Source: Polyporus tsugae
Lineage: Eukaryota; Basidiomycota; Agaricomycetes; Polyporales; Polyporaceae
Assembly: GCA_024305745.1 (NCBI GenBank)
Contig: JAHRBS010000009.1
Coordinates: forward strand, 62,001-126,000
DNA: 64,000 nt
Direction of reading: 5' to 3'
Both the position numbers and the translations under genes were made by a program. Shown here one piece after another: positions 13,875 to 64,000 of the stretch. The notes under the pieces were generated by a model. The model searched no databases, was not told where the DNA came from, and was given only the letters and a program-made list of their open reading frames with translations. The first letter of the stretch is position 1, and every line of letters starts with the position of its first letter.

Positions 13875-13877
<3 letters not shown>

Positions 13878-21175: not shown

Positions 21176-21427
21176 GAATCGCAACAAAACGTTGCAAGGA
21201 TGTGAAAACCCCTGAATATCCTCTCAGCAATATAAAGTAGAAATGTTACACCCGCTCTGGTATCTATCGGGAGTTGTACTACTACCGAACCAACATGTGT
21301 CACAGGCTAATGAGCGAGGCGGTCGCAGAAGAAAGCCCGCCAATACCCTAATCAATTCGTTGATTCTGAAGCAAGCCCCTTCTCCAAAGGTTCATGCGAC
21401 ACACGAGATTTCGTTAAACAGAAGGCG

Positions 21428-45106: not shown

Positions 45107-45111
45107 GCACA

Positions 45112-45384
45112 TGTGGTGGCAGAGGCCACACACGAGCCTCACGGCCTTTCTCGACGTCAACGAGCTTCCATAAATAGTACCTTGCGGACGTCCGTCAGCC
45201 TCCATAAGTAGTAATACGTCCGTGCGCGCTCCAGCTTAGTCATACGGGCTCTCTTACCTCGCGTCCTCCCTGTACGGCTCTTCTTCGTGGATTCAACGCC
45301 GGTTTTGGGCTAAAGCTTCGTCTCCGTTTCTCTATTCTATCTGCGTGCTTCTCGACGTTCTCTCTCTGGTTTTCTCCCATCACA
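45112..45384 (+). repeat. Chromovirus 1, 5' LTR
   Basis: It starts TGTGGTGGCAGAGG and ends CCCATCACA (TG...CA), 273 bp. It is preceded by target duplication GCACA (45107-45111). The partner LTR is 54906-55175 on the minus strand, followed there by TGTGC, the complement of the same duplication. The pair differs by 12 substitutions and a 3-bp indel. Confidence 0.92.
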
Positions 45385-45496
45385 AGTTTGAATCCACCCC
45401 TTCCTGTGTTTTTTTCGGCTTCCGTGCCGATCCCCGGTTTTCGATAACCCTCCATTCCCAACCTCTGTTTCCTTTTCTCAGCTCTTTCTTGGCAAC

Positions 45497-46915
45497 ATGG
45501 ACGGCCCTCCTGTACCGCCTTCTTCAGCGTACTGGTCGCAATCCGACGCCTTTTCCGGAGGTTTTTACGACCCTCGGAATCTCGCCACGGCTCAGGGGTT
45601 TACTGCACCCCAGCCTCAGGTGGCCCAACCACAGCCCACGGCCGAACAATTGGCCCAAATCACTGCTCAAATGCAGGCTCAGCAGGCCCAGCACATGCAG
45701 GAGGCAGCGCAGGCTCAGGCTCAGCTCGAGGCCCAAGCAGCGGCTCAGGCCGCCGCCCAGGCTCAAGCTCAAGCCGCCCAGCAACAGTCTTCCTCGCTCA
45801 ATGAGCAGGACACTCTTCGTGAGTTATTCCAAGCTATTTTGAATTCGAATTCCCAGAATGCGGCCCTACGCGCGCACGCGCAGCAGCAGGACGCTGCTTT
45901 GGAAGCTCTGCGCACGCGTGTTGTTTCGGGCGATGAGCAGGTCGCTCATCTGACCCATGAGGTTCTCGATAAGGTTGCACAATCATTCTACAACCTGCCC
46001 GCAGGTTCTGGGAGTTCTGGCGGCTTACCTCGCCCCACTGCCGTGAAGCTCCGCGAGCCTACTAAGTTCAAGGGCAAGTCGGATGAAGTCGAGAACTTCA
46101 TCCGCGACGTCACCGTAAACATTCGTCTTCAAGGCTCTGCGTTTTCCTCCGACCAAAATAAGGTCGAGTACTTCTCCATGTACTTGGAGAAGGGCAGTCC
46201 ATTGTCCTGGTTCAACGCTATCACGCGACAGAAGCCCCAGCTTATCCACAACTGGGTTGAGTTTGTCGCCGAGTTTACGCATCGTTTCCAGACGTCTGAC
46301 CTTGTCGCTAAGTATATGCGCAAGGTCGAGGCTCTTGAACAGAGGGGTTCCGTTGCAGAACTCGTCAATCAGTTCCAGGAATGTATGGCGTATCTTAACT
46401 GGTCCGAGCAGACCAAGATCGTCATGTTCCGTCGTAAGCTCAAGCCTGACCTTTGTCGGGCTCTCCTAGTCGTTCCAGATCAAGCTACGTTTGACGAGTG
46501 GGCTCCGCTCGTCATTGAGAAGGATAACCAGCTTCACGAGCTTGAGCTCGATTTGAAGCGTGACGAAAAGGCTGGGAAGGCTAAGCCTTTGAATCCTGGC
46601 CACCGCGACCATCCCGATCATACGTTGTTGAGCTGGCGGTCATACGACCGTACCGGGCCTTCGACTTTCCCGTCCGTTCAGCCCCAGTCGGGGTCTGATC
46701 CGAACGGGCCGGCACCTATGGATGTCGACGCTACGTGTCGTCCCCGTGGTCCTTTATCCGCTGAAGAGAAGGCATGTTGTGCCAAACTCAGTCTTTGCCC
46801 CTACTGTGGTGGCAACCACCAATTGAAGGACTGCACAAAATGTCCCTCTGGTAAATCTCCTCCGTCTGGCCAGAAGCCGGACAAGAAGGCTGATCCCGGT
46901 AAGGGAAAAGCCTGA
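45497..46915 (+). CDS. Chromovirus 1 Gag
   Basis: An intact frame of 472 residues starts MDGPPVPPSSAYWSQSDAFS. A long Gln/Ala-rich low-complexity stretch (about residues 40-95) is followed by the retrotransposon Gag core: LREPTKFKGKSDEVENFI, SPLSWFNAITRQKPQLIHNW, EFTHRFQTSDLVAKYMRKVE. A CCHC-like zinc knuckle CPYCGGNHQLKDC lies near the C-terminus, and the frame ends GKGKA. It would form the virus-like particle that packages element RNA. It is the only full-length open Gag in the window; pol of the same element lies inverted at 55237-59426. Confidence 0.9.
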   Translation: MDGPPVPPSSAYWSQSDAFSGGFYDPRNLATAQGFTAPQPQVAQPQPTAEQLAQITAQMQAQQAQHMQEAAQAQAQLEAQAAAQAAAQAQAQAAQQQSSSLNEQDTLRELFQAILNSNSQNAALRAHAQQQDAALEALRTRVVSGDEQVAHLTHEVLDKVAQSFYNLPAGSGSSGGLPRPTAVKLREPTKFKGKSDEVENFIRDVTVNIRLQGSAFSSDQNKVEYFSMYLEKGSPLSWFNAITRQKPQLIHNWVEFVAEFTHRFQTSDLVAKYMRKVEALEQRGSVAELVNQFQECMAYLNWSEQTKIVMFRRKLKPDLCRALLVVPDQATFDEWAPLVIEKDNQLHELELDLKRDEKAGKAKPLNPGHRDHPDHTLLSWRSYDRTGPSTFPSVQPQSGSDPNGPAPMDVDATCRPRGPLSAEEKACCAKLSLCPYCGGNHQLKDCTKCPSGKSPPSGQKPDKKADPGKGKA

Positions 46916-47145
46916 CGGGTGTCTCAGAAGTCCCGGAGGCTCCCGCATCATGAGGGACTGCAGCCCGCGTGAATGAGTCTTCGTCTCATGTCCGTTCTAG
47001 CAACGGACAATATCGTCTTCGTTCTGTTTCCTTTGCTCCGCAGTTCCGTCTCTCGTCTCATATTTCAGAAAATGTCTCTTCTTCTGATCATTTCTTTCTT
47101 TCCATCACACTCCGTTTTCCCGACCGTAAACCCATAAAAACCTTC
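46916..47145 (+). pseudogene. Chromovirus 1 Gag-Pol link and protease N-terminal part
   Basis: The frame from 46969 (SSHVRSSNGQYRLRSVSFAP) ends in ITLRFPDRKPIKTF, the strand just before the protease active site of this family. At 47146 the coding sequence is cut by the LTR of chromovirus 2. The continuation (TLVDCGATSSCVS) is at 59426 and downward on the minus strand. Confidence 0.8.
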
Positions 47146-47340
47146 TGTTACGATACAATTCTTACAATTAGTAATGTCACCTGTAACGACACGTATGACC
47201 TGCCCTGAAGCACCTGGTCCGTGCACGGGCTCCAGCACAATATATAAACCCCTCGGTAGCTGCGGTAATTCCCCAGCTTCAAGTTGGTCTTTAGTCCTCC
47301 AGTCCTCCGCTTATTGCTAGCGTGTGGTCTGACCTTATCA
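47146..47340 (+). repeat. Chromovirus 2, 5' LTR
   Basis: 195 bp, starting TGTTACGATACAATTC and ending GACCTTATCA. It is preceded by CCTTC (47141-47145), the 5-bp target duplication; the other copy of CCTTC lies beside the partner LTR at 59427-59431 (GAAGG on the plus strand). A TATATAA motif at 47241-47247 is the likely promoter element. It differs from its partner at four positions. Confidence 0.93.
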
Positions 47341-47385
47341 TAACTCGAAGCTACCCTCTCATCGACCTACGGCGCACCGTCTTCG

Positions 47386-47940
47386 TTGCCAACCGTGGTG
47401 TCCTCATCATCCTCCACCCCTCTCACTGCTCCGAACACCCAGCTTGTTGTGCGTCTCGCCGACGGCACCACCCATCACCTAGTCCCCATCGACACCCTCA
47501 CCGACTCGTCTCCGTCGTCGATACCGCCTATCCCTATCCCACCCCCGCACCTCCATCACCGATCCCCAGTTCCCACAATCGACTCCGACTCCGACTCCAA
47601 CACAGCCGTCAACTCAGACTCCGATTCAGACGCCGACATCCCCGTTCACATCACCGTTTCCCGACTTGTCAACCCAGCGCACGCCACCTTCATCCAAACA
47701 AGGGTCAACACCCCGCTGTTCCAAGGAACAGAAGTCACGGCGTACGTCCCCCGCTCCCTCTACCCCGTCCTCCCCGGACACGTCATCTTCCGCTTCCCCG
47801 CCACCCCAACAACTCCCGCCTATTCCCTTTACGGCATCACGGTATCCATACAACCCACCTATTGGGTATTTCATATTACCCTTATACCTTACGTTACCGA
47901 TCAGACTGCCGTATTACACATGTCCATTCCAACCGAGTAG
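47386..47940 (+). CDS. Extra ORF between LTR and gag of chromovirus 2
   Basis: A 184-residue open frame starting MPTVVSSSSSTPLTAPNTQL. The first half has proline and Asp/Ser repeats (IDSDSDSN, NSDSDSDAD); the second half is more ordered (VNPAHATFIQTRVNTPLFQG, SLYPVLPGHVIFRFPATPT). No known Gag or Pol domain is seen. The sister frame at 47322-47984 is a Pro/His-rich shadow. It is open although gag and pol of the same element are broken, which may be chance or may mean it is conserved in the family. Confidence 0.45.
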   Translation: MPTVVSSSSSTPLTAPNTQLVVRLADGTTHHLVPIDTLTDSSPSSIPPIPIPPPHLHHRSPVPTIDSDSDSNTAVNSDSDSDADIPVHITVSRLVNPAHATFIQTRVNTPLFQGTEVTAYVPRSLYPVLPGHVIFRFPATPTTPAYSLYGITVSIQPTYWVFHITLIPYVTDQTAVLHMSIPTE

Positions 47941-48066
47941 TCAGTGACCACATGTCACAACTCGGCGTAGGAGACCCCGGTTAGCCATACCGCGGTAAAA
48001 CTGCTATTGTAACCTATACCTTGTCACGTACTATACACTTACCCACACCTTCTTTGTATCTAGTGA

Positions 48067-50084
48067 ATGGACCCTTGGGATCTGCTGCTCGAATCGTACC
48101 CAACCCCGTCTCCATCCCCTCCACCGGTCCTCCGCGCTATAGATGCACGGGAAGCTAGGGAAACACGGCTTGCACAGGACAGCGGCACTGTCAATTCCAG
48201 AAATCAGATGACATCCAAGTCGACGCACACATCCTCGACAACAATCTCCATCAGTGCCATCAACAACTGTGCCCCAACCGGTACCACAGCTCGAACCCTG
48301 ATGAGTTCCGATCCCCACAATACATCCCTATCCCGCGCGAACCGCCACTGAAACCAACAGCTCCAGTATCTGGAACGGCTCACGCAAGAACTCATGCATG
48401 TCAGCCGACCCCTGAGCCCGTTGAACGACCTGGAAGCCCGTACCCACGCACCCGTCCAGAACGTCAGCAAGAACCTACCCCACCGGTCGCACACATCCCC
48501 ATCCCCATCCAAGTTGCGGGATCCACGGAAGCGTCCCCGATCGCTGGAAGCAGCCGATTCGAATACTGAGAGCTCCCGGAAGAACCCTCGCCTCCAACAG
48601 ACTCCGACGATGATCAAGAACCTTCCAGACATCATAGATCGGACTCAGACGGGTTCATCCGTGCCCTTGAGAACCTCGGCCTCCGCGCTTCCCCCACGAC
48701 CACAGGACCCTTATCCGCTCCCCAAAACCCCATCCAACCTCCCGTCCAAACCGCCGGCGTCAGCCAACCACCCCGTGCTCATCGAACAATGGTGCAAATA
48801 TTTTCATTTGACGCGGCAACGCAAGCGTGGATCTCGGGAGAGATCGCAAACTTCATCGCGGCAACTCAACCACAACGCGGAGGCAGGAACCACGCCCCGC
48901 CTAGACTCGCCCAGCCCGAGTACTTCGATGGCATCAGCCCAGACTTCGAACAATGGAAGTCTGACGTCCAGGTCTACGTGGCCAGCTTGGACAAAGATCC
49001 AGCAATATCTGCCGTCTTAGGGTTGATTCATGGGACAAACGTGAATAGATGGAAGCGTAATCTCATAGAGGACAAATTTGTGGCAAACGGGAATAGATGG
49101 AACTACCCGGACGTAGCGGCATTCTGGGCCGAGTTGACAGCAAAGTTTAGACCAATAAACTACGTTAACGACGCAATCATTGCACTCGATCAGATTCACA
49201 TGGGCAACTGCCAGGCCGAAGACTTCTTTGACGAATGGGAAGATCTGACAGCCCGTGCCACGGAGAACAAAGACACAGCCAACAACATCTACCAGCTCAA
49301 AAACGCACTACCATCCAGCTACCTAGTTGCGATCAGCACGATGCCGGTAAAACCTGTCACCTACGCCCAATGGAAGTCTACGATCATCGCCATGGACAAT
49401 GATCGCATCATCTTCAATTGCCAGATCTGTGACTTCACACATTGACCACCCCCGCAACAATTACCCCCACGTGCCCCACCTCGTTACCCACCATCAAATG
49501 CCCCTCCGCGCTATAGCAACCCTCCCCCGCGATACCCGGGAAATGCCCCACGGTATCCGTCACGATACCCGGAACACGCCCCAGCGTTCCCTCCTTCACA
49601 ATATCCGCCGTACGCCCCAGCCTCACAATACCCTCCACCCCGGCCGTACTACCTGCCGCGTCCCCAAGTACCCATGATGCCAGGAGACAGACGCACAGGC
49701 ACAGGGGTCACGTATGGAGGAGCCAGACAGCCGATGGACATTGATCGGCTCAGGGCCCAGCCATGCCGAAAGTGTGGCGCAAAGCAGACCGAGAAGGGCT
49801 CGTGCGGAGACATGTGGCACATTCCCAACCGAACCGGCGCAGCCGCGGTACAGAAACGCCGGTGGGAAGAACACAACAATCGCGAAGAATTCCTCGAAGA
49901 GGTCAGACATTTCCACCAAGAAGACCCCGAGGACTTCCTTGCACAGATTGCCGGGGTATCGGTCCCTACCTATCACGAGGACCCAGAACCACAGCACGCA
50001 CCGGAGGAATACACGGATGGATATGACAAGATACGGTACCAGATGGACGAGTATGAGCAGCATTTTCCCTACGGTCCCACGTGA
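48067..50084 (+). pseudogene. Chromovirus 2 Gag, frameshifted
   Basis: It starts MDPWDLLLESYPTPSPSPPP. The frame shifts near 48180, meets a TGA near 48565, and recovers as the Gag core at 48789-49445 (MVQIFSFDAATQAWISGEIA, PEYFDGISPDFEQWKSDVQV, NYVNDAIIALDQIHMGNCQA). It shifts again near 49430 in the region before the Pro/Tyr-rich stretch. The C-terminal zinc-binding part (CRKCGAKQTEKGSC, DMWHIP) is open at 49674-50084. Order and motifs are those of a Ty3/gypsy Gag; several breaks prevent a full-length product. Confidence 0.8.
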
Positions 50085-50314
50085 GTGCACACACGCGGCG
50101 ACCATCATTTTACAATAGTTTTCAGAACTGGTTTTCTGTTTTGGACTCCGATGTACCCGTCCCGGGTTGTACCATACCTATGCCTACTTATTCACCAGAC
50201 AACTCCACCATTCCCCACCCTACCCAGTTACCCACTGTACTTATTAAAAACAACGAGATGACTGATAGTCGGGGCTGACCTACAGGCAACAATCAGCGTG
50301 GCGGGGTAGAACCC

Positions 50315-52519
50315 ATGCTTAATTTCTCGTCCAAAAATAACAAAAAATCTAAAACAACTCCTAGTGTGCCCATTAACGCCATCCGAGTAATGTCCTACGG
50401 TCCCGCGTACTTCAAAGTCACACGAGGTACGGGAAGTAAACAACTGGACATACCGGTCATGATCAAAAATCTACAAACTCTTCAGGTTTATGACACTAAG
50501 GCTCTCTGCGATACCGGTTGTACCGGTTCGTGTATCAATAGAAACTTCGTTCAGCGCGCAGGCCTATCACCTAAACCATTCCCACATCCCATCGACATGT
50601 TCAATGCCGATGGATCTCCCAACATAGGTGGTAGAATCACGCATTATGTTGACGTACAACTACAGATTGGAGACCATGCGGAACAAATCCCGCTTTTAGT
50701 CACCAATCTTGGCAAAATGGACATCTATCTTGGGCACGACTGGATTGAGCACCACAATCCATTGATACATTGGAAGAACAAAACCATTGAGTTCGACCGA
50801 TGCCCGAGCACTTGCCATCACATTGTCAGCGCTGGTGATCGAATCTTCTCCCTACATATCCGATCGTGGCTTGATGCCCGATCAGTCCACGTACGTGCGA
50901 AAATGTCGGTAGCAATAGAAATCGCAATTAAACAGAATGAGGCCAAGGCAGAACAAATGTTCGAGGAAATGATCCCAGAGTATTACCGAGATTTCCGCGA
51001 CGTCTTCGACGAAGCGACGTTCTCCACTCTTCCCGAATGACGGCCTTATGACCACGTGATTGAATTGACCGAGAACGCTAAGCCGTATTGTGGAAAGATA
51101 TACCCCATGACCCTAGACGAACAACAAGCGCTAGACATGTTCTTAGAGGAAAACCTGTCCACGGGTCGAATTCGTCCATCAAAATCCTCGTGGGGTGCTC
51201 CGTTCTTCTTCGTCAAGAAAAAAGATGGCAAACTGCGTCCCGTTCAGGACTACAGACAGTTAAACGCCTTGACCAAGAAAAACGTGTACCCTCTTCCTCT
51301 AATGCTAGAGATCCTAGATCAGCTGAAAGGCGCCCAGTACTATACCAAGTTAGACATACGTTGGGGATACAACAATATTCGTATAGTCGACGGCGATGAG
51401 GAAAAAGCAGTGTTTATCACGAATCGCGGCTTATACGAACCTCTCGTCATGTTCTTCGGCTTAACAAACTCCCCAGCGACTTTCCAAATGATGATGAACT
51501 CGATCTTCCAAGATCTGATTCTTTGTGGAAAGGTCATTGTGTACTTGGACGACATCATCATCTGTACAGCCAATTTAAAGGAACATAGACACATAGTGTG
51601 ACAAGTCCTACAGATCCTTCGAGACAATCACCTTACGTGTAAACCCCAGAAGTGCGAGTTCGAAACTCAAGAAACCGAGTACTTAGGCCATATCATCACC
51701 CCCGGCGAAATCTGCATGGACCCGGGCAAGGTCAAAGGTGTTACCAATTGGCCAGTACCCACGTGCAAACGTGACGTACAGAGTTTCCTCGGATTCGCAA
51801 ACTTCTATAGACGGTTTATCAAGGACTTCTCAAAGATCGCTGGACCTCTGAATCATCTCACGGGTCTTAACGAATGGACATGGACTCTAGAGCATCAACT
51901 CGCTTTTGAAGGGATCAAGGGTGCAATCACACACGCCCCCGTGTTAGCCATACCCAATGACACAGATCCCTTAAAAGTCAAATGTGATGCCTCGAACTTT
52001 GCAATCGGAGCCGAGCTCTCGCAGTGCCAGAACGGACTATGGAAACCTATTGCCTTCCTATCACATTCCTTAACACCCGCACAAAAAGGATACGAGATTT
52101 GGGATCGAGAAATGTTGTCAGTTATCACCGCGTTACAGGAGTGGCATCACTTCCTCCAAAACGCTCGAGAATTTGAGGTTCATAATGACCATAAGAACCT
52201 TGAATACTTCCGAAAACCACAACGGCTAAACGCTCGACAAGCGCATTGGGCAACTACTCTCTCAAATTACCATTTTAAGTTAATCCATAAGCCAGGTCGT
52301 ACCATGGGCAAAGTAGACACTCTGTCTAGACGCGTGGACCACGAGACCAGTCCCGTGATCAACGACTTCACGTTGCTCAAAGAACACTGGTTTGCGGCAT
52401 CTCATACAATAGACAGAGCGGACAATCTAAAGAAAATGTATTTGAAACACATTAATCTTTATGATCGTCTTGTCGTTGAGAAACTAGGAAAGGACAATGA
52501 TTGGGAATTATTCGTGGAG
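50315..52519 (+). pseudogene. Chromovirus 2 Pol, protease-RT-RNase H part
   Basis: The protease has ALCDTGCTGSCI with the DTG active site and YLGHDWIEHHNP. A TGA at 51038 separates it from the reverse transcriptase, which contains WGAPFFFVKKKDGKLRPVQD, LFYEPLVMFFGL-type motifs, and the intact catalytic VYLDDIIIC. A second TGA at 51600 interrupts RT; both sit where CGA (Arg) is expected. RNase H follows (KCDASNFAIGAELSQ, DHKNLEYFRKPQRLNARQA). The frame ends at FVE (52519), where sequence changes to antisense kinase K6. The integrase half lies at 59830-61233 on the minus strand. Confidence 0.9.
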
Positions 52520-52751
52520 CAAGATGGGATGCCGCACATGGTTCGTGACCAGTGCCTTCTTGATTGCAAACACCCGCCCGACGTCCTCGCTGCGCGCCGC
52601 CATGGTCACAGTTGTGGCATAAACTCCGGCTGGTGAATCAATATATCATTAGTGCATAGAGGCTTCGAGGCCATAAGTACAGTTCTGGCTGGATTTCGGA
52701 CTGACTGTCTCGACCCATGCCAAGGAGCTCCGCACCGTAGCTGATTTTCAT
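52511..52751 (-). pseudogene. CK1-like kinase K6, N-terminal fragment
   Basis: Read on the minus strand, an ATG at 52751 opens MKISYGAELLGMGRD, the glycine-loop exon, followed by an intron. The second exon carries MAARSEDVGRVFAIKKALVT and NHVRHPILLH, matching K3 and K5. It stops at the TTCGTGGAG junction with chromovirus 2. The missing remainder of the gene begins at 61234 on the plus strand. Confidence 0.88.
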
Positions 52752-53106
52752 CGTTAAAGTGAGTGGCTCGAGGTTGAATGTTGTCGCCGACTGATTCGGA
52801 TAAAGCTTGAAGATCCAACAGCCCCATGCCTGGAGAACGTGGTCGTAGAAGTGCATAATGCAATGCCCGACGTTGCAGTCCTTCGTTAATCGGAGAATTC
52901 GGAGTCAGCCTGAGCCTTCGTCGGAAGGGGGCACGGTCACCCAAGTCAACTGATTCGACAAATAGGAATATTCCGAACCCCGGCGGTTTTGCCCCTTTCC
53001 CTGAACTGAGACCATTCCGCCATACCAGTACTAGCAATATATTCAATATTCATGCACGGGTCATCACTATCCATGCCCAAACCGCAGAGTCTGTAGCCCA
53101 TTTGTA
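52752..53106. other. Upstream region of K6, absent from copy A
   Basis: 5' flank of K6 read on the minus strand. The sequence near the ATG resembles the K3 upstream region. Copy A has lost it together with the first kinase exon. Confidence 0.5.
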
Positions 53107-54020
53107 TTCATTCCAAGAATCACAACAAAACATTGCAAGCATGTGAGGCCCCCTGAATATCCTCTCAGCAATGTATTAGCAGTAATGTTACCGCCGCTCT
53201 AGTATCTATCTGACACAGCGGGAGTGCTACTGGCTACCAAACCAACTTGTGTCACAGGCTAATGAGCAAGGCCGTCACAGAAGAAAGCCCGCCAATCAAT
53301 TCGTTGATTCTGAAGCAAGCCCCTTCTCCGAAGGTTCATGCGACACACGAGATTTCGTTAAACAGAAGGCGTCAGGCTGAAGCGTGCGTCGAGAGCTTCA
53401 GCATCTTGAACCGCGCGAGCATCGCCTTGATCTCCGGCAGTTTCGCACTCCTTGCAAGGTGCCCGTGTTCCGCCATGAAACGCTGTAGGTCGTCGATGAA
53501 CCTCTTGACCTCGCGCGGGTGCCACGATGGCTCCTCGGGGTTCCCATATCTGGACAAGTATCTGGACACCTCGCTGCCAAGTCAGAGCGCGGTGGCGTAC
53601 GAGAGGAGGCTAAGGACCCAGGTCACGATGGCGAACTGTGGAGATGGTATATGTAGAACAAGGAGAGAGGAAGCGAAAGCGAGGGCAGGGCCGAATCGGA
53701 CAAAGGCAGAGGTGAGCATGATCAGCTTCCGATCGAGAGGATGAAAGTGCTTACCGATTGCTTCATCCACATTGCCGTGGTTAAGCCAAAGGTAAAGGTG
53801 AACCCGCAGAGGACGACTAAGTACAGACCCTCTCGTTCTCCTCACCGACGTCCTCGATTGGTGCCTCCTTCCCCTCCTCCGCCTGGACTTTCTCCGTTGC
53901 TGTAGACATGGCTGATGATGGGTCTTGAGGGCGATAATGGTTGAGCTAGTACGAGTGTTGTAGAAAGGTGGCCTTTGAATATTGATTTGGACTCGGGGAG
54001 CAGGTTGTGGTGAGAAGGAA
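53107..54020. repeat. Segmental duplication, copy B (inverted part)
   Basis: Matches 21168-21870 and 23091-23275 of copy A in direct orientation, from TATTCATTCCAAGAATC through the two-TM gene to GTGGTGAGAAGGAACGATGG. The equivalent of about 21870-23060 is missing. Its orientation relative to the rest of copy B (61234-64000) is explained by the inversion. Confidence 0.85.
53372..53909 (-). pseudogene. Two-TM membrane protein, copy B, disrupted
   Basis: It starts MSTATEKVQAEEGKEA at 53909. The TM1 exon (LYLVVLCGFTFTFGLTTAMW) is out of frame with the first exon, and in the TM2 exon ATAL is followed by TGA where copy A has Ser (ALSLGSEVS). The tail REVKRFIDDLQRFMAEHG to KLSTHASA is well kept. 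It is a decayed copy of the 21428-22198 gene. Confidence 0.75.
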
Positions 54021-54114
54021 CGATGGTGCAAGTGAGACAGGCCTGGCCCAGCAGGATGGTGACGGTTCGTTCCAAGCGCGCATGGGCACTCAGAGACTTC
54101 GTTGCCGGTTACAG

Positions 54115-54850
54115 CAGTTTCCAAAATTGGTGTCCGCGTGCGCTTTGCACGCAAAAATTCAGAAAAAGCAGAAATTCATGACCTCGGATCCCGACCCATT
54201 TAATGGTCAGAATTTGGTTCTATTACATTCAGAACTTATCCGAGGGAACGAATGAAGTTGAATCAGGAAGATACAGCAAGTTTCCCACGAGAAAGACGTG
54301 AATCGTCACTGGATGCGGAATTCACGTTCCTGCTCCAGTTGAACATGTTTCCCGCAAAATTCTGGCTCAGTGGTACTCCCTAAAGGCTTCTTACACATTT
54401 CAATTTGTCAGATATGCTCTATGACCCTTAGAAGTTGAAGGATGTTTGTAACTCGTCCAACCGACCTCACGGCTGGATAGACACCGGAAGGTCGTCGAGG
54501 AGGCAATCGCATTCTACCCCACCAATCAACCTCTGGGCCTCCGAGTTGGTCCCTAAAAATCATGAAGGGGTATACAAAGGTATTTCAGATGAGACCAGGC
54601 CGATCCCGCCCAGAGAAACAGCCTCCTCTCCGTAAAAGATGTGGAGCGTGGTCTGGATGATGAGGCATGCTACCACTACCATATCCCATGTCTTTCTCCC
54701 TCACCTTGTTCTCTAACACTCAATGGCTGCTTACAGAGGTTCTACATATAGAATGGAGTGGTTTGGGAGGCTTGATTCATACCTCACGAATTTCTGCATT
54801 TTCTGATTTTTCGCGTGAAAAGCGCGCGCGGACACCAATTTCGGAAACAG
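54115..54850. mobile_element. Non-autonomous DNA-transposon-like element
   Basis: Terminal inverted repeats of about 68 bp: 54115-54183 begins CAGTTTCCAAAATTGGTGTC, and the reverse complement of 54783-54850 begins CTGTTTCCGAAATTGGTGTC; both continue with GCGCGCTTT- and GCAGAAATTC-like words. The 600-bp interior has no coding frame of note. No clear target duplication is seen, so the exact ends are uncertain. It sits 50 bp from the chromovirus 1 insertion site. Confidence 0.65.
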
Positions 54851-54905
54851 CTCAGTCCGGGCAGCTGCTGCGAAGCAACGTTCAATTTTGCAAGCTGACC
54901 TGTGC

Positions 54906-55175
54906 TGTGATGGGAGAAAACCAGAGAGAGAACGTCGAGAAGCACGCAGATAGAATAGAGAAACGGAGACGAAGCTTTAGCCCAAAACTGGCATTGAATC
55001 CACGAAGAAGAGCCGTACAGGGAGGATGCGAGGTAAGAGAGCCCATATGACTAAGCTGGAGTGCGCACGGAGGTATTACTTATGGAGGCTGACAGATGTC
55101 CGCAAGGTACTATTTATGGAAGCTCATTGACATCAAGAAAGGCTGTGAGGCTCGTGTGTGGCCTCTGCCACCACA
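54906..55175 (-). repeat. Chromovirus 1, 3' LTR
   Basis: On the minus strand it starts TGTGGTGGCAGAGG and ends CCCATCACA, 270 bp, followed by target duplication GCACA (TGTGC at 54901-54905). A polypurine tract GAGGAGGAGGTAG lies immediately before it (about 55176-55188). Relative to the 5' LTR, eleven of twelve substitutions are CpG to TpG or CpA, all in this copy. Confidence 0.92.
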
Positions 55176-55236
55176 CTACCTCCTCCTCAAGGGGAGCACG
55201 TGCAACAAACTAACTGTGATTCCAGCCGGACGGCTC

Positions 55237-58200
55237 TCACAGGTTAAGCCTATCGGGTGGATGTGCAACGCGACCGGTACACGTCATCATCTGAGAAGGC
55301 GGTTCATACCAGACGCGAGGGTCAACGCGTCGAGGTTTCGGTGATGGCGTATGCGGGGCTGCGTGCGGGATTGAGGATAAGACGGGAGCGGAGTCTTCTT
55401 CGGTAGGTGGATGGTTTTCATCGGCAGGAGCGGCGCGGTCTTCATCGGCAGTGAGGAGGTCTTCTTCAGCTGGGGACGAGGGCGCGGGATCAGACGGACG
55501 TAGGAGCAAGGTGGGTGGAGGGCAAGGAGCGCGAGTATGGCGACGGTGGAATCGCTCGAGGAGCTCATTGGCGGTAGACGGTATGTCAGAGAGGGGGACC
55601 CAAGAATCCTCATCTTGCGGCTGGTCGTGCCAGTGGACGAGGTACTCGTATTGCTGGCCAAGTTTGCGGCAGTTGAGGATCGAGTGGATGGTGAGGTCAG
55701 GAGCTTCCTTGGCGAGTTGGAACGGGACGGGATTGGTGCTTGGAGAGGCGGCAGAGGTGTCACGGTAGGGCTCGAGGAGGGAGACGTGGAAGACGGGGTG
55801 AAGACGAGAGAGGTAGGATGGGAGACGGAGCTTGTAGGCGACGTCGGAGATGGCATGGTTGATAGGGAAGGGACCGAGACGACAATGATCTAACTTATCA
55901 GAAGGTCGGTTAGTTTTAATGTGCCGACGAAGCAACCAGACGAGTTGCCCTGGCCGCAACATTGGGGCGATCTTCACGTGTTCGTTGTAGTACCGGGATT
56001 GACAATCCTGCGCAGCATGGAGCTGTGTCTGGAGCTCGGCGTGTATGCGCGAGAGACGCTGCACCATGTCATTCGCCGCGGGGACCGTGGCCGTCGGGGT
56101 GACCATAGGGTTGAAGGTCGGATGGTAGCTGAGGTTGGCGTAGAATGGGGACTTGCCAGTTGAGGAGCTCGCGTGGTTGTTGTACGCGAACTCGGCAAGG
56201 GGCAAGTAATCGACCCAGTCATCCTGTTGGGACGACACGTACGCACGGAGGTAACACTCGAGTGTTTGGTTGGTGCGCTCGGTGAGACCGTCCATCTGTG
56301 GATGATGAGTGGTCGAAAATTTGAGCTCTGTGTGAAGCAAAGAAGTCAGTGCGCCCCAAAACTGTGATACAAACACGGTGCCACGATCTGAAACGATGGA
56401 CTCCGGCATGCCGTGATGGCGGAAAATGAGGTCGAAAAACAACCAAGCCAATGCTGGCGCATCCATGGTCTCATTGCACGGGATAAAATGGCCGTGGCGC
56501 GTGAGACGGTCGCAAACGACCCAAATTGAATCAAAACCATGTGAGAGTGGAAGTTTCACAATTGTGTCCATCGTGAGACCCTTCCAGGGACGGTCAGGGA
56601 TCTCGAGCGGCCGCAAGAGGCCAAACGGTGTGTGACGAGGAGCCTTAATGCGACTGCAAGTGTCACAGCTCTGGACGTACTTATGGATGTATGTCTGGAG
56701 ACCAGGCCACGAAAAGTCGTGCTTGACGAGCTCAAAGGTGTGCTCGCGACCGAAGTGACCGGAACGGGCCGAATCATGATAGAACCGGGTGACGTCTGAA
56801 TGGAGCGAACGTGGAACATAAAGACAATTGTCGTGGTACACAACATTACCTTCAGAGCAGAACTTGGAGTTGTCGCACAAAAACGCAGCTCTCCACTCTG
56901 GGTCAGCCTGGACAGCATCGGAAAGACGCTGCTTGAAGTCTGAGCGGTCGACCGAAAGCTCAGTGAACGCAGAAATAATAATGGGAGAAGAAGAGGAGCC
57001 ACGGATGAAAGCAAAAGAGGAAACTTGTTGAGGCCAGGCGGTCAAAGGCTTGCGATGCCACAAGTGCTCCGTGTGCGACGGAGTCAAAAGAGCTTTAAAG
57101 TTCTCTTCGACCACCTCATCCCCCTTCTGAGGAGCGAAGTCGGCACACCGCGAAGGCGCATCGGCAGGGTTCCTCAAGCCGGGAGCATAGTCGAGGCAAA
57201 AGTTGAATTCGGAAAGAAAGATCGACCACCGAGCTTGTCGACGGTTGAGGATATGGGAAGACATGAAATATTCAAGGTTTTTGTGGTCGGAAACGACAGC
57301 GACAGGGTCGTGCGTACCAATTAACCACGTGCGCATGTCGCGGAACGACTCGACAATGGTGAGAAGTTCCTTGTCGTAGATCTGATAATTGATCTCAGCC
57401 GGCAACAGCTTGCGGGAGAAGTACGCGACAGGATGAAGGTGACCTGCACCATCGGGTTGATGAAGTACACCTGCAATGGCAAAGTCTGAAGCATCAGTAG
57501 AGAGGGTGCACGGGTGAGAGGGATTGAAGTGAACGAGAACAGGCTCGGAGAGGATAGCTGTGCACAAAGCTTCAAATGCGTCATTAGCCTCCGAAGACCA
57601 ATGGAACGGCGCATCACGCGAAGCTTTCTTAGTGAGCACGTGCATGGGAAGTGCTAACTGGGCGTAGTTGTCAATGAATCGGCGGTAGAAGTTGGCGAAG
57701 CCAAGGAATGACTGAACGTCTTTGACGGACTTGGGGACGGGCCAGTCAGCGATGGTGCTGAGCTTCTTGGGGTCCATCCGAATGCCATTGGCGTTGAGAA
57801 GGTAGCCGACGTACTCAACTTCGGACTGGTCAAAGTGACACTTCTTCGCGTTGGCGAAGAGGCCCGCTTTTTCGAGACGCTCGAGAACCATTGCAATGTG
57901 ACGGTCGTGCTCCTCCTGGTTGTGGGAGAAGATAAGGATGTTGTCAATGTAGACGACACACACAACATCGAGGAGGTCGCAAAGAGTGTCTTGAATATAA
58001 GCTTGGAACGTGCCTGGAGCGTTAGTAAGACCGAACGGCATAACAAGATACTCAAAGAGGCCAAGGTGAGTGCGGAAGGCGGTTTTCCATTCATCTCCTT
58101 CGCGGATGCGGATGAGATTGAACACGTTCTTCAGGTCTAGGGTCGTAAAGACCTTGCACCCTTGGATGCGGTCAAGTAGATCGCCGACGAGTGGAAGCGG

Positions 58201-58302
58201 GTGATTGCGTTGAGACCCCGATAGTCGACGCAGAGGCGGAGCTCGCCTGACTTCTTGTGCATGAACAGGATCGGGGCTGCTGCGGAGGACGTTGAACGAC
58301 AA
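55237..58302 (-). pseudogene. Chromovirus 1 Pol: RT, RNase H, integrase, chromodomain
   Basis: One open frame of 1021 residues. RT motifs are [20 protein letters not shown] and VVYIDNILIF, where the second catalytic Asp of YxDD is Asn. RNase H has TDASDFAIAGVL and SDHKNLEYFM. Integrase has the HHCC finger (HDSARSGHFGREH, CDTCSRIK) and DDE residues (MDTI, SDRGTVFVSQF, GLTERTNQ). A chromodomain ends the protein (HSILNCRKLGQQYEYLVHWH, EDSWVPLSDI), defining a chromovirus that would target heterochromatin. Upstream the RT N-terminus ([10 protein letters not shown]) is in another frame: a small deletion removes residues before PLPLVGDLL. The first 30 or so residues of the frame are therefore not native. 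Confidence 0.92.
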
Positions 58303-58429
58303 ATGAAGCCCTTCTTGAGGTTCGTTTCGATGTAGTCGAGGACGTGGGCTTGTTTGTCTTCCGAGAGGTGATAGAGAGGACCGTATGGCGGGGTCTTGCC
58401 GTCCTCCAGCTCAATCGTGGTGTCGAAAC

Positions 58430-59431
58430 CCGGTCAATGCGGAGGGAGTTAGTTGACCTCAATCGGAGAGAATATGCGCGTGAAGCGCGCGTACTTGTCA
58501 GGGATATGTTGAGACGGGTCGTCCGGAGGCGGCGGCTCGGGCGGCGGTGAGTCGGGTGGTGTTGTGTCGCCCAAGTCGTGACGCATTGCGGCCAGAGTAT
58601 AGCCAGTGATGCCGACTGGATGGTAGTAGAGCATGGCTATCTCGTTGGAACGAGCGTACTTGCGAAACCGTGCTGAATTGATGAACTTGATGTCGAGGTT
58701 GGGAGGCGACTCGGTCCAACCGCAGCCAGTTTGAGCCTCCTCGAGTGGAAACGGCGGGAGCTCTGTTCGACCGCGGCTGAGGCAAGCATCGCCGAGGGGA
58801 GAGAGTCGAGGGCGGAGGACACTGTCAATAGAGAAGATAGACCCGATTCGACCGCAGCCGAGTTGGGTAGTGAGTCGGGGAGCATGCCAAGGCCGCGCAC
58901 TCGCGGACAACACCGAGACATGCAGGAGAGACGTAGATGAGGGTAGAGACAAGGACGTGTGATCAGGGCGCCTCGTGGGATCCCAGCGCGACTCGCGCGC
59001 TGAAAACGGTGGAACAGAAATACCAAATCCAAATCCAAGAGACGTGGGAGCACAAGAACGTGCAGGAGATGAGAGTGTGTGTGCGGACTCTCGACGTGCA
59101 AGGGCATGCACGACGGAATTATCGCTGCAACACAAGAATTGCAATTCACGACGGACCCAATGAATCTGTGGGTTATGGTGTTCTAACCAGTCAAGTCCCA
59201 GGATCACAGGGTACGGGACCTCGACAACGCCAAGGAAAATATTTTCAGAGTGAGAATTGACGGAGAGAGATGTTACTACGTCATACTCGACGAGGCCTGA
59301 CGCAATAGGGCAATTATCAACGGCAAGAATGGGAACAGGCTCGTCCTTCAAATGACGAGGTAAATTATGACAATTTGCAAATGACAGCGAGACACAAGAG
59401 CTGGTCGCGCCGCAATCGACGAGCGTGAAGG
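58430..59431 (-). pseudogene. Chromovirus 1 protease region and Pol linker
   Basis: Reads FTLVDCGATSSCVSLSFANC, the aspartic protease site (DCGA in place of DSGA), then VILGLDWLEHHNP. A variable region and IFSPIEVN follow before a TAA at 58449 and, a few codons on, a TGA within the linker to RT. The N-terminal part lies at 46969-47145. The first bases here abut chromovirus 2's LTR, with GAAGG (59427-59431) as target duplication. Confidence 0.85.
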
Positions 59432-59626
59432 TGATAAGGTCAGACCACACGCTAGCAATAAGCGGAGGACTGGAGGACTAAAGACCAACTCGAAGCTGGG
59501 GAATTACCGCAGCTACCGAGGGGTTTATATATTGTGCTGGAGCCCGTGCACAGACCAGGTGCTTCAGGGCAGGTTGTACGTGTCGTTACAGGTGACATTA
59601 CTAATTGTAAGAATTGTATCGTAACA
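59432..59626 (-). repeat. Chromovirus 2, 3' LTR
   Basis: The reverse complement starts TGTTACGATACAATTC and ends GACCTTATCA, 195 bp. A polypurine tract AAAGAGGGGGGTAA lies just before it (59627-59640, minus strand). It differs from the 5' LTR at four sites, all explained by CpG decay (TG against CA, C/T and A/G). Confidence 0.93.
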
Positions 59627-59829
59627 TTACCCCCCTCTTTAGCTTCATGTCCCAGGAAGCCGCAAAGTGTTAGTTAGTGGAGTAGTCGTTAATACCATGG
59701 GTTAACTAGTTGTAAGCAAAGTGTCGTATATAGTCCTGTTGTGTATTACCGTCATTAGGGTTTCGTCTTTTCCAATCATTATATCTACGTGTCCAAAAGT
59801 CATAAGAGTCTGTATTGTACGTAATTATT

Positions 59830-61233
59830 TGTCCATGTTTGTCCGTAGCGGTGAGTATGTAACGAGCGTGGATGTGTGGTGCAAATTTGTTTGCTGCATA
59901 GAAGGCGGTGATGAGCTTTTTGGCATCATCCGTCCGAAGTTTGTCTGTATCCGAAGGTATCCATTCGCGATCAGCTCGCGTGAGTCCACACCATTGAACG
60001 AGATAGTGAACTTTGTGAGATCAGCCTGATCCTTCCACGCTCTTTGAATCTAAGATTGATTCGACTTCTCGATCGGGTTCCAGGAGGGTGGGTACTTCTC
60101 AACTGGTTTTCCCTTGATTTGGGAATTTGGGATCATGTGCGGGGGTTAGGAGTACTTCGTTGAATACGGGATGACGCAACTTCCACTTGGGTGGGAGCTT
60201 TAGGCGATATGCACTAGCACCGACTTTTTCTTCCACTCGGAAAGGGCCGTAGCGCTTATCCTTGAGTTTTTTGTTTGGTCGGTCGGTGGGAAAGTTTTGT
60301 GCATCTATGTATACGTAATCGCCTATCTTGTAGTCTTGTGACGGTTGTCGATGCTTGTCGTAATGTCGTTTCATCGCTTCTCGCGCTATCTCCAGTGCCT
60401 GCGCTGCTTGTTTCCCGATGTGTTGCATTCGCTCAGCGAATTGCTTGGCGGATTCATTGATGCCGTCTTTCAAAGTCTCAACTCTGGTGTTGGGTTCATG
60501 ACCGTGAGTCATGAAGAAAGGGGACATCCCTGTGGACGTGTGTACACGACATCGGTATGCGAACTCTGCTAACAGTAGCCATTCGACCCAGTCGTCCTGC
60601 TTGTGATTGATGAAGATCCGTAGATAGGTCTGGATCTCTTGATTCATGCGCTCGGTCTGTCCGTCGGTTTGGGAATGATAGGCTGTGCTGGGATTGCCTT
60701 TGATTCCCATCTGTCGATAGACTTCTTTGGTAAACGAGGATACGAGGGTGGGGCCTCGATCCGACCATATGTGCTCGGGCAGGCTATGGGGTGCGACTAC
60801 GTGTTTGATGAAGAGTCTTGCTTGTCCTTCCGAGTCTAACATTTTTGAACAGAGAATAGTGATGTAGTCCTTTGACTTCATATCAACAAAGACTAATATG
60901 GCATCATGTCCGTTACATTCGGGTAGTCCGGTCATATAGTCCATGGTGACGAATTGCCAGTTCTGATTGGGAATAGGGTTGGGATGGAGTGGTGCGGCAC
61001 GGGGTTGTTGATCAATCTTGACGCGCTGACACGTGATGCATCCGGCGACGTACTTGGCAACGTCTTTCCAAATGGACGGCCACCAATAAGATCTCATGAT
61101 CAGATCTTGTGTTTTGGCTGCGCCCGGGTGTCCAGCCATGATTGAATCGTGATGTGAAGCAATGACACGTCCGCGAAGCTCCAGATGGTTTGGAATGACC
61201 AATTTCCCCCTCCTGTAGATTAAGCCGTCCTCG
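59830..61233 (-). pseudogene. Chromovirus 2 Pol, integrase and chromodomain part
   Basis: It begins at the inversion junction with DGLIYRRGKLVIPNHLELRG. The HHCC zinc finger is HHDSIMAGHPG...CITCQ; DDE positions are TMDYMTG, WSDRGPTLVSSF and GQTERMNQE; the GPFRVEEKVGASAYRL module follows. The long frame ends with a TGA at 60099. In the same frame beyond it a chromodomain is visible (PDREVESILDSKSVEG, then a second TGA, then HKVHYLVQWCGL, REWIPSDTD). Both TGAs could derive from CGA. The integrase core is otherwise intact. Confidence 0.9.
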
Positions 61234-62520
61234 GCGTGTGCTCTTGTTCTGCTACGAGGTGCGTCCGACTGAGTTCGAAAGCGGGCGACATTGGCACGGG
61301 CTCACGCAGAGCCTAATCATATGCATCCGCAGGACACTCAGGTATCCCGAGAGCCATCGCATGGGGACGATCGCAATACTTCGAGTACCTGGTGATGGAA
61401 CGCCTGGGACCGAACCTTGAAGCTTGAGGGCCCCACCGTCAAGACGATAGGGGCGACCTGCCTCACTCTGCGAAACTTAGCCGTCCTTATATGCCAAGTG
61501 GTGAGTAGCCTGAGTATGGCTCTGCCGGCACCATGGCATGAAGAGACGGTCTTACAGAGTCGAATCTGATCGTCCCAGCTCGACATCAATGAGCACGTCC
61601 ACGAGCAAGGCATCGTCCACTGCGACATCAAGCCCCGCAACTTCGTGTTCGGTGCCGGGAAAAACGCGGGTCGACTTCACCCGATCGACTTTGGCCTCTC
61701 CCGGCCGTGGATCGATCCCAAGACCCGACAGCCGTTCCCAGACTCAGAGCCGAACCTCGGGTTCAGAGGCACGCCGCTGTACGCCAGCCGACACGTCCAC
61801 TTGGGTCACAGTAAGCAATTGATACTCTGCCTTCCACGCGTCACGTCTCGAACAAAGAGCTGGACTGAGCCTTCGCTGCAGCCCCGTCGCGCCGTGACGA
61901 CATGGAGTCGCTTGCGTACGCCGTAGCCCTCCTGCTTACTGGCACCCTCCCTTGGGCCAAAACTGACTCGGACGACGAGTTGCTTGCCATCGTCTATGGC
62001 CACAGCGGCAGGACCCTCTGCGAAGGCTATGACGACGTGTTCGCTCAGTTCGTGGACTACACGCGTAGCATGCAGTACGACGAAACGCTGAGGTACCAGT
62101 AGTGGCGACGAGCCTTTCGCGAACTCGTTCCTGGTCTCGCTGAGTTCCACCCGGACGACGATAGCGAGCCGCGCGTCGGGGTGCAGAAGAACGTCGACCG
62201 CCTCCGCTGCGAGGCCTGCCCGAAACGCGCCGAGCCTCGCTCTGACAGCGATCCGTTCCTTGAGCGTACACTCGGAGCGGATTCCCGGTCGTCACAAGGG
62301 GGAAGACACGGGTTTGTGCCCAACGTAGGCTCGTCTTGGGGTTGTGGGGGGGGGGGCCATCCCAGCGGACGATCTGTTCGGTGACGAGTTCGCGATCGTC
62401 GAGGCGAGCCTTGAGTTCATTGACGCGCCTCCGGACTACAGATACGGGTCATGCACTTATCCTGGAGCGGCTCCCCCCGAGCAGATGAAGAACACCCAGT
62501 CTGACGCTCGGTGTATATAG
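61234..62520 (+). pseudogene. CK1-like kinase K6, C-terminal part
   Basis: Continues the fragment at 52511-52751. Seen are CALVLLRGASD-type sequence, IAWGRSQYFEYLVMER, QGIVHCDIKPRNFVFG, IDFGLSRPWIDPKTRQPFPD, RRDDMESLAYAVALLLTGTL and the C-terminal domain ending NTQSDARCI at 62520. Besides the inversion it carries a 7-nt insertion (AAGCTTG near 61421), a TAG at 62100 where K5 has Asp (RYQDWRRAF), and an 11-G run near 62346 that shifts the frame. It is a pseudogene several times over, nearly identical to K5. Confidence 0.88.
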
Positions 62521-62667
62521 CAACTCCTCTTGTGCTCATCGGAGTACAACTCGTCGTACGTGACACCTCAATCAGCATCGACCCCGTCCCTAGAGAAACA
62601 ATGGCCGGAGGGGTACTAGAGATCTTAGCGACGATAAACGCGAACCAGACATGGCAAACAGCTCACT

Positions 62668-63225
62668 TCAGACGGCGGTCTTCCAGAGGAGATACAGGAA
62701 CGTCTTGCCACGGTTCTTATTGATGTCGACTGTGTTCCCGCTCCACCCGGTAGGACGCTGGCCGAGACCGCCGTTGAGGCGGAGCAGAGCCACCTGGGTG
62801 ACCTTGGCCTCCTTCGTGACGTCCTTGATGGGGAGCAGGTAGCGGAAGTCGCCGCCCGCCCCCTTGGCGAGGTCCTTCAGCGACCCGTCGGCACCCTCCT
62901 GAATGGCGATCTCGAAGCCGATCACCGCCGCGCTGCGTTGGGTGGTGTATCGGGGGACGAGCCAGATGAACCTAAACCGGAACTCGTCAGAGGATCCACA
63001 CTAGTGGCGAGAGGGTCCTTACTTTCCGCCGTACTGGTAGTTGATGTCGTCGCTCTCCCCGTTGAGGTCGCGGACGCGTTCAGAGGGAGCCTGAGACGGC
63101 TGGTCGCCGTATATGACCTGCGATGATGGAAGTGCGCATTGTCAGCCGCGTGAGAGGGAGGACGGCGATGCTAAATTCACGTCTATGTGGGAGATGAGGA
63201 GACGTTGGCCAGTATTGTTGGTCAT
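62668..63225 (-). CDS. Small beta-prism (MABP-like) protein, copy B
   Basis: The start at 63225 gives MTNNTGQRLLISHID. Introns at the same places as in copy A join VIYGDQPSQAPSERVRDLNG and FIWLVPRYTTQRSAAVIGFE, and the frame runs open to KTAV at 62668. Changes relative to copy A are few and mostly conservative in this exon set. Both splice acceptors (CGCAG, TTTAG) are intact. It is the one gene of the duplicated block that is open in both copies. Function unknown. Confidence 0.65.
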
Positions 63226-63636
63226 GACTCGTGAGCGGTGTCTCTTCGCTTGCCACTACAGCCCTTATATCTGTAAGAATAATCGATGGGCGATGCTATC
63301 CCATGTTCGATGCCACCCCGTGTTTGCCACAAGCCATCGTATTTGGCACTCGAAGGAGCCATTCGTAGATCAACCTTAACCTTACGGTGTCCAAAGACCA
63401 CACGCTGATCATCATGCTCGCCGGCCACAAAACCTCCGACTGCTAGAGGCAAATTAGTCCAGTAATGTATCGCATTTCAGCCGGAATCCTCGCGGCAAAG
63501 AGAAGAGAAAAATGAGGACCACGTAACGGGTGAGACGAACGGAGATGACGTCGGCTCGTTTCGTCGGTTCAGCAAAACACACCGAGAAGACGAGAGCCGC
63601 TCGGGACGGCCGGAGGTCCCTGCGGCGCAACCCTAC

Positions 63637-64000
63637 TTGAACATCAGGCGAAATGAAGTGGATAGGCAGCGTTCCGACGACAGTCTCAATGATGCTGTAA
63701 TACACGAGGTGGACCAGAACCTGGCCGGGTTCATCCCCTTCCGCAGGCAGAAGGCGCAGACCCCGGGCCCGCGCATGCTCTTCGGACGACTTGCGCGGCC
63801 GAGTCTTATCCCCGACAACTCGACGGATAGGCACGATCCCTTTGGGGACAAGCACATGGTAGGGTGCGACGCCAGCGGTGAAGACGGGGGGGGGAGGCGA
63901 CACCGTGCTGCAGAACGAACAAACAGAGACTCACCGTGACGATAAACCATTCCCCTACCCCGGCTGGTCCCGCGGACAGTCGGTAGCTTTCCCTCCCCTC
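63637..64000 (+). pseudogene. Partial unknown-protein family copy, runs off the window
   Basis: Contains NLAGFIPFRRQKAQTPGP and DPFGDKHMVGCDASGEDGG, as in 18179-18691 and 14385-15413. A 9-G run at about 63885 adds one base, so the frame ends RDSP at 63939 while the family frame (QNEQTETHRDDKP) continues in another phase to the window edge. Probably a pseudogene fragment. Confidence 0.6.

Follow-up and report, generated by a model that had tools for sequence, protein, structure and literature searches.

An apparent 8.7-kb inversion splitting a nested retrotransposon and a kinase gene in Polyporus tsugae

Retrotransposons and kinase pieces at the locus

The window, which is the whole 64,000-nt stretch of Polyporus tsugae DNA analyzed here (assembly GCA_024305745.1, contig JAHRBS010000009.1, positions 62,001 to 126,000), contains two nested Ty3-type LTR retrotransposons, of which element 1 bears a chromodomain and has the make-up of a chromovirus, and two separated pieces of a kinase gene, K6. 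A protein search in which the 7994 candidates with the most words in common were scored produced few named hits, with Lentinus brumalis (70% over 69% of the query) as the nearest among them, in keeping with an agaricomycete host that is probably a member of the Polyporales. The features are listed by position in the window, with TSD denoting a target site duplication.

45107-45111, plus strand: left TSD copy of element 1, GCACA, the reverse complement of 54901-54905
45112-45384, plus strand: left LTR of element 1 (TGT...ACA, 273 bp), inverted match to 54906-55175
45385-47145, plus strand: left body of element 1 with the gag ORF (about 45392-46915)
47141-47145, plus strand: left TSD copy of element 2 within element 1, CCTTC, the reverse complement of 59427-59431
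47146-47340, plus strand: left LTR of element 2, 195 bp long and matching 59432-59626 at 98% in inverted orientation
47341-52510, plus strand: left body of element 2, with protease, reverse transcriptase and RNase H (PF13975, PF00078, PF17917), stopping at the left breakpoint
52510-52511: left inversion junction, Pol and then antisense kinase, blunt, with no common bases
52511-61233: inverted segment, about 8.72 kb, defined from Pol copies, kinase paralogues and LTR pairs
52511-52765, minus strand: N-terminal piece of K6, antisense to Pol, contiguous in the paralogues with the sequence from 61234 onward
54901-54905, minus strand: right TSD copy of element 1
54906-55175, minus strand: right LTR of element 1, 270 bp long and in the opposite orientation to the left one
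55176-59431, minus strand: right body of element 1, with protease, reverse transcriptase, RNase H, integrase and chromodomain
59427-59431, minus strand: right TSD copy of element 2
59432-59626, minus strand: right LTR of element 2, in the opposite orientation to the left one
59627-61235, minus strand: right body of element 2, the integrase half of Pol (PF17921, PF24626)
61234-61235: right inversion junction, a 2-bp GC common to kinase and Pol
61234-62583, plus strand: remaining, C-terminal part of K6, matching the paralogues at 12675-13823 and on C16

The gag ORF of element 1 scored 41.8 bits for Retrotrans_gag (PF03732; cut-off 24.1), and the right body of this element matched PF00078, PF17917, PF17921, PF24626, PF08284 and PF00385, the last of which (Chromo) scored 41.0 bits against a cut-off of 25.1. 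The integrase core (rve) remained under its cut-off (19.8 vs. 32.6 bits), while the zinc-binding domain was above its own. Element 1 has the layout of a chromovirus, with reverse transcriptase, RNase H, integrase and chromodomain placed between LTRs that are bordered by the GCACA duplication. Apart from a match of 127 bp and 74% on C9, a genome search that ignored very common words showed no further copy of element 1, and because of this there is no empty-site copy of it either. Element 2 is highly repeated, with at least 40 copies; the search gave 45 candidates, one of which is the query's own source, and all 40 that were scored are colinear across the position of the break. The stop-to-stop frames of element 2 in the window close at 50084, 51040 and 51601, ahead of the junction. 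The chromodomain expected after its integrase scored 17.0 bits in the window piece, below the 25.1-bit cut-off, and 32.1 bits, above it, in the corresponding piece of the sister copy L004.

The two K6 pieces were compared with kinase copy A and with the paralogues at 12.5 kb and on C16, which are unbroken where K6 is split. The sequence from 61234 to 64000 is 89% identical to copy A, and beyond the N-terminal K6 piece similarity to the flank of copy A resumes at 53109 and extends to about 54026. Eight internal indels, some of them perhaps in introns, separate the K6 piece from copy A over about 660 bp. The paralogue ORF at 12683-13222 matched Pkinase with 38.1 bits against 31.7, and its best solved relatives were CK1 kinases, while the Pfam search returned no family for the copy A ORF at 19805-20461 or the paralogue ORF at 13168-13824. 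K6 may be casein kinase 1-like; the CK1-type domain was scored on the paralogue, and K6 itself was placed by DNA similarity.

The inverted segment and the order of events

Reversal of 52511-61233 in silico brings back the order of the element 2 Pol, the order of K6 and both LTR pairs, and the Pol order obtained in this way is the one seen in all seven fetched copies as well as in the 40 scored ones. The earlier note had proposed that such a reversal restores both reading orders and also reunites the two halves of element 1; the first proposal is borne out by the Pol copies, the kinase paralogues, the LTR pairs and the TSDs, and the second agrees with the LTR pair and the GCACA duplication of element 1, which match in inverted register. 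What the reversal gives back is reading order, without intact genes. Both 5-bp duplications, GCACA and CCTTC, are perfect, and only in the inverted register, while random 5-mers agree by chance with a frequency of 0.0009 per pair (20,000 draws). The inversion is thus well above chance.

Since the TSDs and LTR pairs are matched once the segment is reversed, the order of events can be read from the sequence: element 1 was inserted, element 2 was then nested in it, and the flip came last. These sequence comparisons strongly support one inversion that accounts for the Pol of element 2, for the kinase and for the two halves of element 1, although a rearrangement in two steps would leave almost identical letters. 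A query from copy A spanning the kinase joint detected no further, uninverted version of this locus elsewhere in the genome. It gave 13 matches, with 10 candidates scored; other than copy A, those exceeding 90% were the two K6 pieces of the window, and the best other match crossing the joint among the 10 scored candidates was one of 73% on C16.

The locus presents a three-step history of insertion, nested insertion and inversion, base-resolved from one genome, in which the TSDs serve as internal proof of the order. It also illustrates that a retrotransposon and a gene can be divided by the same inversion, and the flip turned both LTR pairs from direct into inverted repeats. Recombination between LTRs inverted in this way could flip the intervening segment but no longer reduce it to a solo LTR by deletion.

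The distribution of CpG losses was compared across the same region. They are one-sided in the inverted host flank (18 vs. 2 at 53109-53812 and 4 vs. 2 at 53819-54026) as well as in element 1's right LTR (11 vs. 0), and balanced in the uninverted kinase body (15 vs. 14). In the ancestral order the change lies no more than about 0.6 kb from the breakpoint. It is conceivable, but unlikely, that the flip parted methylated from unmethylated DNA, leaving a dated boundary; if this were true, CpG decay could clock the inversion. In element 2, where the share is the number of CpGs lost by the window over all CpGs of a copy (shared plus lost), about 26-32% were lost to the left of the Pol joint and 31-38% to the right, relative to the six copies that fully cover both sides. 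The share was higher on the right for all six copies, with almost no gap for L005, and all of these comparisons use the one window copy. L002, which was left out because its right side amounts to only 534 bases, gave 28% on the left and 33% on the right. As the left-right shift is slight, a link between CpG decay and the inversion through element 2 is kept only as a low-odds idea.

Junctions and rejoining

At the left junction, the last 1.7 kb of the element 2 left body are colinear with all seven fetched copies up to the joint; these copies extend to 52518 and then resume at 61235 in descending direction. Positions 52511-52519 read TTCGTGGAG, which is kinase sequence, while Pol copies have GCCGAGGA at the same place. 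In all seven fetched copies GC stands in place of the window's TT, and among 45 pattern matches TT occurs in that of the window alone, with GC in the other 44, although the search pattern itself included GC and was biased toward copies that carry it. The exact overlap at this junction is 0 bp both upstream and downstream. As the earlier note described, Pol stops after RNase H and is followed by antisense kinase, but the breakpoint, which it had put at 52519|52520, is moved by the sister copies to 52510|52511, and the sequence TTCGTGGAG that it considered common to kinase and Pol is absent at this point from the seven fetched copies and the 44 other pattern matches. On the right, the integrase half does lie on the other strand and abut the C-terminal part of K6, with Pol reading downward from 61235 on the minus strand, rather than from 61233, and the kinase starting at 61234. 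From 61235 down, six of the seven sister copies continue over about 1.5 kb, while L002 continues for 416 bp and then again past a gap. Instead of the loss of about 5 bp supposed before, the net loss across the inversion is 2 bp, and the right joint has a 2-bp GC common to both sides.

Very probably, these observations reflect two insertions, the second nested in the first, and then one balanced, reciprocal inversion (about 8.72 kb) whose ends were sealed by canonical non-homologous end joining (NHEJ). Element 1 would have inserted first beside K6, making the GCACA duplication, and element 2 would then have inserted into element 1, making the CCTTC duplication. We infer that two later double-strand breaks occurred together, one cutting element 2 between its RNase H and integrase domains, the other falling in a putative coding exon of K6, and that the middle piece was rejoined in reverse, with one joint blunt and the other on the 2-bp GC. 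Canonical NHEJ depends on Ku70-Ku80 and ligase IV. Two breaks followed by end joining fit the blunt left joint, the 2-bp right joint and the lack of homology at the breakpoints, whose 1.2-kb neighborhoods have only 9-11-mers in common (best E 0.27). A blunt joint paired with one of 2 bp is what end joining usually leaves when long microhomology plays no part. The joints are reciprocal, with nothing duplicated, as in a balanced inversion, and their common sequence, 0 and 2 bp, is within the approximately 4 bp allowed for this pathway. A review of fungal repair (PMC9779921) gives up to 4 bp of microhomology for canonical NHEJ joints, 8-20 bp for microhomology-mediated end joining in two S. cerevisiae studies, and, for TMEJ, about 1 bp in the case of C. 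elegans and 2-4 bp in that of Xenopus; given these TMEJ values, the 2-bp joint by itself is also compatible with alternative end joining.

The alternative that survives best, though quite improbable, is an assembly misjoin that placed the 8.7-kb piece in the wrong orientation, as a highly repeated element such as element 2 is a typical spot for assembler errors. The window has no N, however, and the contig begins in telomere repeats in an assembly of 18 contigs and 43.2 Mb. The base-exact reciprocal joints have too little in common to mislead an overlap, low-copy kinase sequence lies on one side of each, and the 2 missing bases look like a trace of repair, while mere misorientation should cost no letters. 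Replication-based template switching (FoSTeS/MMBIR-type) or other alternative end joining as the source of both joints is less probable still. Template switching usually leaves a copy-number change, while this event is balanced and has no duplication or templated insertion at either joint. In its favor, it is compatible with the 2-bp overlap at the right-hand joint, and a yeast chromosome study cited in the same review (PMC9779921) found that canonical NHEJ falls toward the telomere, with microhomology-mediated break-induced replication, among others, in subtelomeres; the position of the locus, 114-123 kb from the contig end bearing telomere repeats, is a point against canonical NHEJ. Even less credible is an inversion mediated by microhomology through TTCGTGGAG, so that of the earlier proposal of one microhomology-mediated inversion the single inversion is supported and the microhomology is not. 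The kinase TTCGTGGAG and Pol GCCGAGGAC agree at five of nine bases, which about 5% of random 9-mer pairs reach, and microhomology at the left joint was rejected on the GC of the sister copies; the broken copy could in principle have differed from them, yet the right-hand Pol piece in the window still reads CGAGGACGG. Ectopic homologous recombination between inverted LTRs or element copies has a negligible probability and was rejected, because, although parts of the region are now bordered by inverted LTR pairs, their inverted orientation is a product of the flip, no LTR pair lies at a breakpoint, and the breakpoints fall in unlike sequences, Pol and kinase, without a common repeat or homologous copies in the 1.2-kb neighborhoods.

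Comparison with known systems

Among the titles and abstract openings surveyed, none resembled this locus. The inversion attributed here to canonical NHEJ resembles Drosophila chromosomal inversions that arise by breakage and non-homologous end joining (PMC3355041) in having two breaks in unrelated sequence, rejoining free of homology and a gene altered at a breakpoint. It differs in its size of only 8.7 kb and, relative to the staggered-break examples with inverted duplications at their ends, in its blunt or nearly blunt joints and the loss of 2 bp (PMC3355041). One of the two broken sites is in a mobile element, which recalls the inversions that transposons such as Galileo in Drosophila generate by ectopic recombination (PMC2775673). 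On the other hand, the hallmark of those inversions, chimeric copies of the element at both ends whose TSDs have been exchanged (PMC3355041), is absent, as only one broken site is in an element and the TSD pairs belong to the two insertions.

Like the intrachromosomal inversions of Dothideomycetes (PMC3516569), this one lies inside a fungal chromosome. The former were tied to simple repeats within 500 bp and inferred between species (PMC3516569), while the present inversion is a small one, base-resolved in one genome. Both elements have TG...CA LTRs and 5-bp TSDs, as chromoviruses do, and element 1 has the gag, protease, reverse transcriptase, RNase H, integrase and chromodomain of a chromovirus, while the element 2 copy departs from a typical chromovirus in being split and in its chromodomain match under the cut-off. 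The inversion looks genuine and is an ordinary case of the repair of broken DNA, of a well-known class, which is very cleanly resolved at this locus.

The inversion and the sequences it divides

The ~8.72-kb segment 52511-61233 is inverted; it is a genuine and well-resolved structural variant of a familiar type that splits a Ty3-type LTR retrotransposon (element 2) and a kinase gene (K6). The earlier note had proposed such an inversion, and the proposal was borne out by the colinearity of sister Pol copies, the contiguity of kinase paralogues and the inverted orientation of two LTR pairs. The two pairs, each with its own target-site duplication, likewise agree with the two elements that it had described. 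The window corresponds to bases 62001-126000 of contig C11, in a genome of 43.2 Mb in 18 contigs; C11 starts with CCCTAA telomere repeats, and the inversion lies ~114.5-123.2 kb from that end. No N was present in the window or in five further stretches fetched. The self-comparison of the window and further searches gave the following features:

8000-21200, both orientations: cluster of kinase-like paralogues, ~66-84% DNA identity in the listed pairs
18299-21111, matching 64000-61234 inverted: kinase paralogue (copy A) against K6
21112-21169, matching 52511-52568 directly: adjoining part of copy A
34081-35487: WD-repeat ORF, nearest named relative in a protein search from Lentinus brumalis (70% over 69% of the query), which points to an agaricomycete host, probably one of the Polyporales
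45112-45384 and 55175-54906, mutually inverted: LTRs of element 1, a second Ty3-type retrotransposon
47146-47340 and 59626-59432, mutually inverted: LTRs of element 2
54113-54852: element resembling a DNA transposon or MITE, its terminal inverted repeats ~69 bp long and 88% alike, with a 92% relative on contig C13 and further partial relatives

All seven sister copies of element 2 that were fetched, out of 39 others scored, follow the window to 52518 and then resume from 61235 downwards; past this point six of them run for ~1.5 kb, and L002 runs for 416 bp and, beyond a gap particular to this copy, reaches as far as the LTR. When a 400-base query from sister copy L004 spanning the breakpoint was used, all 40 copies scored among 45 candidates, L004 itself included, were colinear across it, while none of the 39 other copies scored (44 candidates) passed base 198 of the window's own 420-base query. 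At the equivalent site the kinase is unbroken in copy A, in the 12.5 kb paralogue and in a paralogue on contig C16. A misassembly rather than a biological inversion is unlikely, as both joints are base-exact and reciprocal, they lie in unlike sequences with low-copy kinase on one side of each, and 2 bp are missing that a merely turned-round piece would keep.

Pfam searches of the pieces showed that element 2 was cut after its RNase H domain and before its integrase; its frames are interrupted by stops, and its chromodomain was below the cut-off in the window piece and above it in L004. Element 1 gave matches above the cut-off for gag, RT, RNase H, the integrase zinc-binding and SH3 domains and the chromodomain, and one below it for the integrase core. 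Element 2 is repeated at least 40 times in the genome, and element 1 is apparently single-copy (one match to a gag-side query; its own two sites and a weak 127-bp match to a right-end query).

K6 is a member of the local kinase cluster, in which one paralogue ORF matched Pkinase, with casein kinase 1 as its best relatives among solved structures; Pfam assigned no family to two further ORFs of the kinase loci. The break in K6 falls in a codon row reading LLHE|ACALVLLRG in the paralogue, and the remaining part has eight internal indels relative to copy A over ~660 bp, some perhaps intronic. Copy A is itself probably truncated, since ~540 bp of the K6 locus (52569-53108) are missing from it at 21168-21169, and the first part of this stretch resembles the N-terminal region of a paralogue. 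Related kinase stretches at ~42.1-43.8 kb (L029 2115-3757) and ~2417.2-2418.8 kb (L030 3244-4807) of C11 are 83% alike over 1.67 kb, each within ~90 kb of one end of the contig, with both ends represented; their likeness perhaps reflects exchange between chromosome ends.

Order of events and CpG loss

The target-site duplications are GCACA for element 1 (45107-45111, and 54901-54905 on the reverse strand) and CCTTC for element 2 (47141-47145, and 59427-59431 on the reverse strand); in the present order the LTR-adjacent bases match in neither element. Random 5-mers from the region agreed at a frequency of 0.0009 (20,000 draws), so that two chance matches would be expected about once in a million. 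The inversion came after the two insertions, and element 2 lies within element 1. The LTRs differ at 4/195 positions in element 2 and at 12/270, plus a 3-bp gap, in element 1.

At 11 of these 12 element 1 positions a CpG of the left LTR stands as TpG or CpA in its partner, and the reverse never occurs; a CpG-type C-to-T bias is known in basidiomycete elements (PMC4352252). The K6 host flank inside the inversion (53109-53812) lost 18 CpGs versus 2 in copy A (21168-21870), the flank further out inside the inversion 4 versus 2, and the kinase body outside it (61234-64000) 15 versus 14. It is very doubtful that this contrast between inverted flank and uninverted kinase body is tied to the inversion. 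Element 2 has no more than a slight rise in CpG loss on the inverted side, and the inverted Pol1 shows no CpG depletion (observed/expected 1.11).

Junctions and repair

Sister Pol copies read GGGAATTA (GGGAGTTA in L006) and then GCCGAGGA, the left junction of the window reads GGGAATTA|TTCGTGGAGCAAG, and copy A at the kinase breakpoint reads CACGC|TTCGTGGAGCAAG. The comparison of these letters places the left joint at 52510|52511 with zero shared bases, 9 bp from the position proposed earlier. On the reverse strand the right junction reads CACACGC|CGAGGACGG, where GC at 61234-61235 is common to both sides and 2 bp were lost, not the ~5 bp first estimated.

A genome-wide pattern search gave 45 matches at up to three mismatches (31 were exact, and 9, 1 and 4 had one, two and three, respectively), and its reversed-pattern control gave one. 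TT at two diagnostic bases was found only in the window's match and GC in the other 44 of the 45, where the pattern itself carried GC and so leans towards GC copies, and some three-mismatch matches may be due to chance; the seven fetched sister copies were chosen without this lean. A single match to the left-junction pattern was found when up to two mismatches were allowed. Since the sister Pol copies and the other search matches carry GC, not TT, TTCGTGGAG is kinase sequence only, and the earlier claim of microhomology through it fails, as the left joint shares no base.

Homologous recombination was ruled out, because the 1.2-kb breakpoint neighbourhoods share only 9-11-mers (best E 0.27). 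The breaks were probably rejoined by canonical end joining (C-NHEJ), whose usual traces fit the 0 and 2 shared bases and the 2 bp lost; a fungal repair review (PMC9779921) gives C-NHEJ joints of up to 4 bp, and MMEJ joints of 8-20 bp in two S. cerevisiae studies. The same review also speaks for other routes, either TMEJ, with joints of ~1 bp in C. elegans and 2-4 bp in Xenopus, or microhomology-mediated break-induced replication, to which it assigns a role near yeast telomeres, together with less C-NHEJ there. Since these points count against canonical end joining, we infer it as the pathway rather than assert it. The present inversion, which is without any inverted duplications at its ends, differs from staggered-break inversions in Drosophila, which bear such duplications (PMC3355041).
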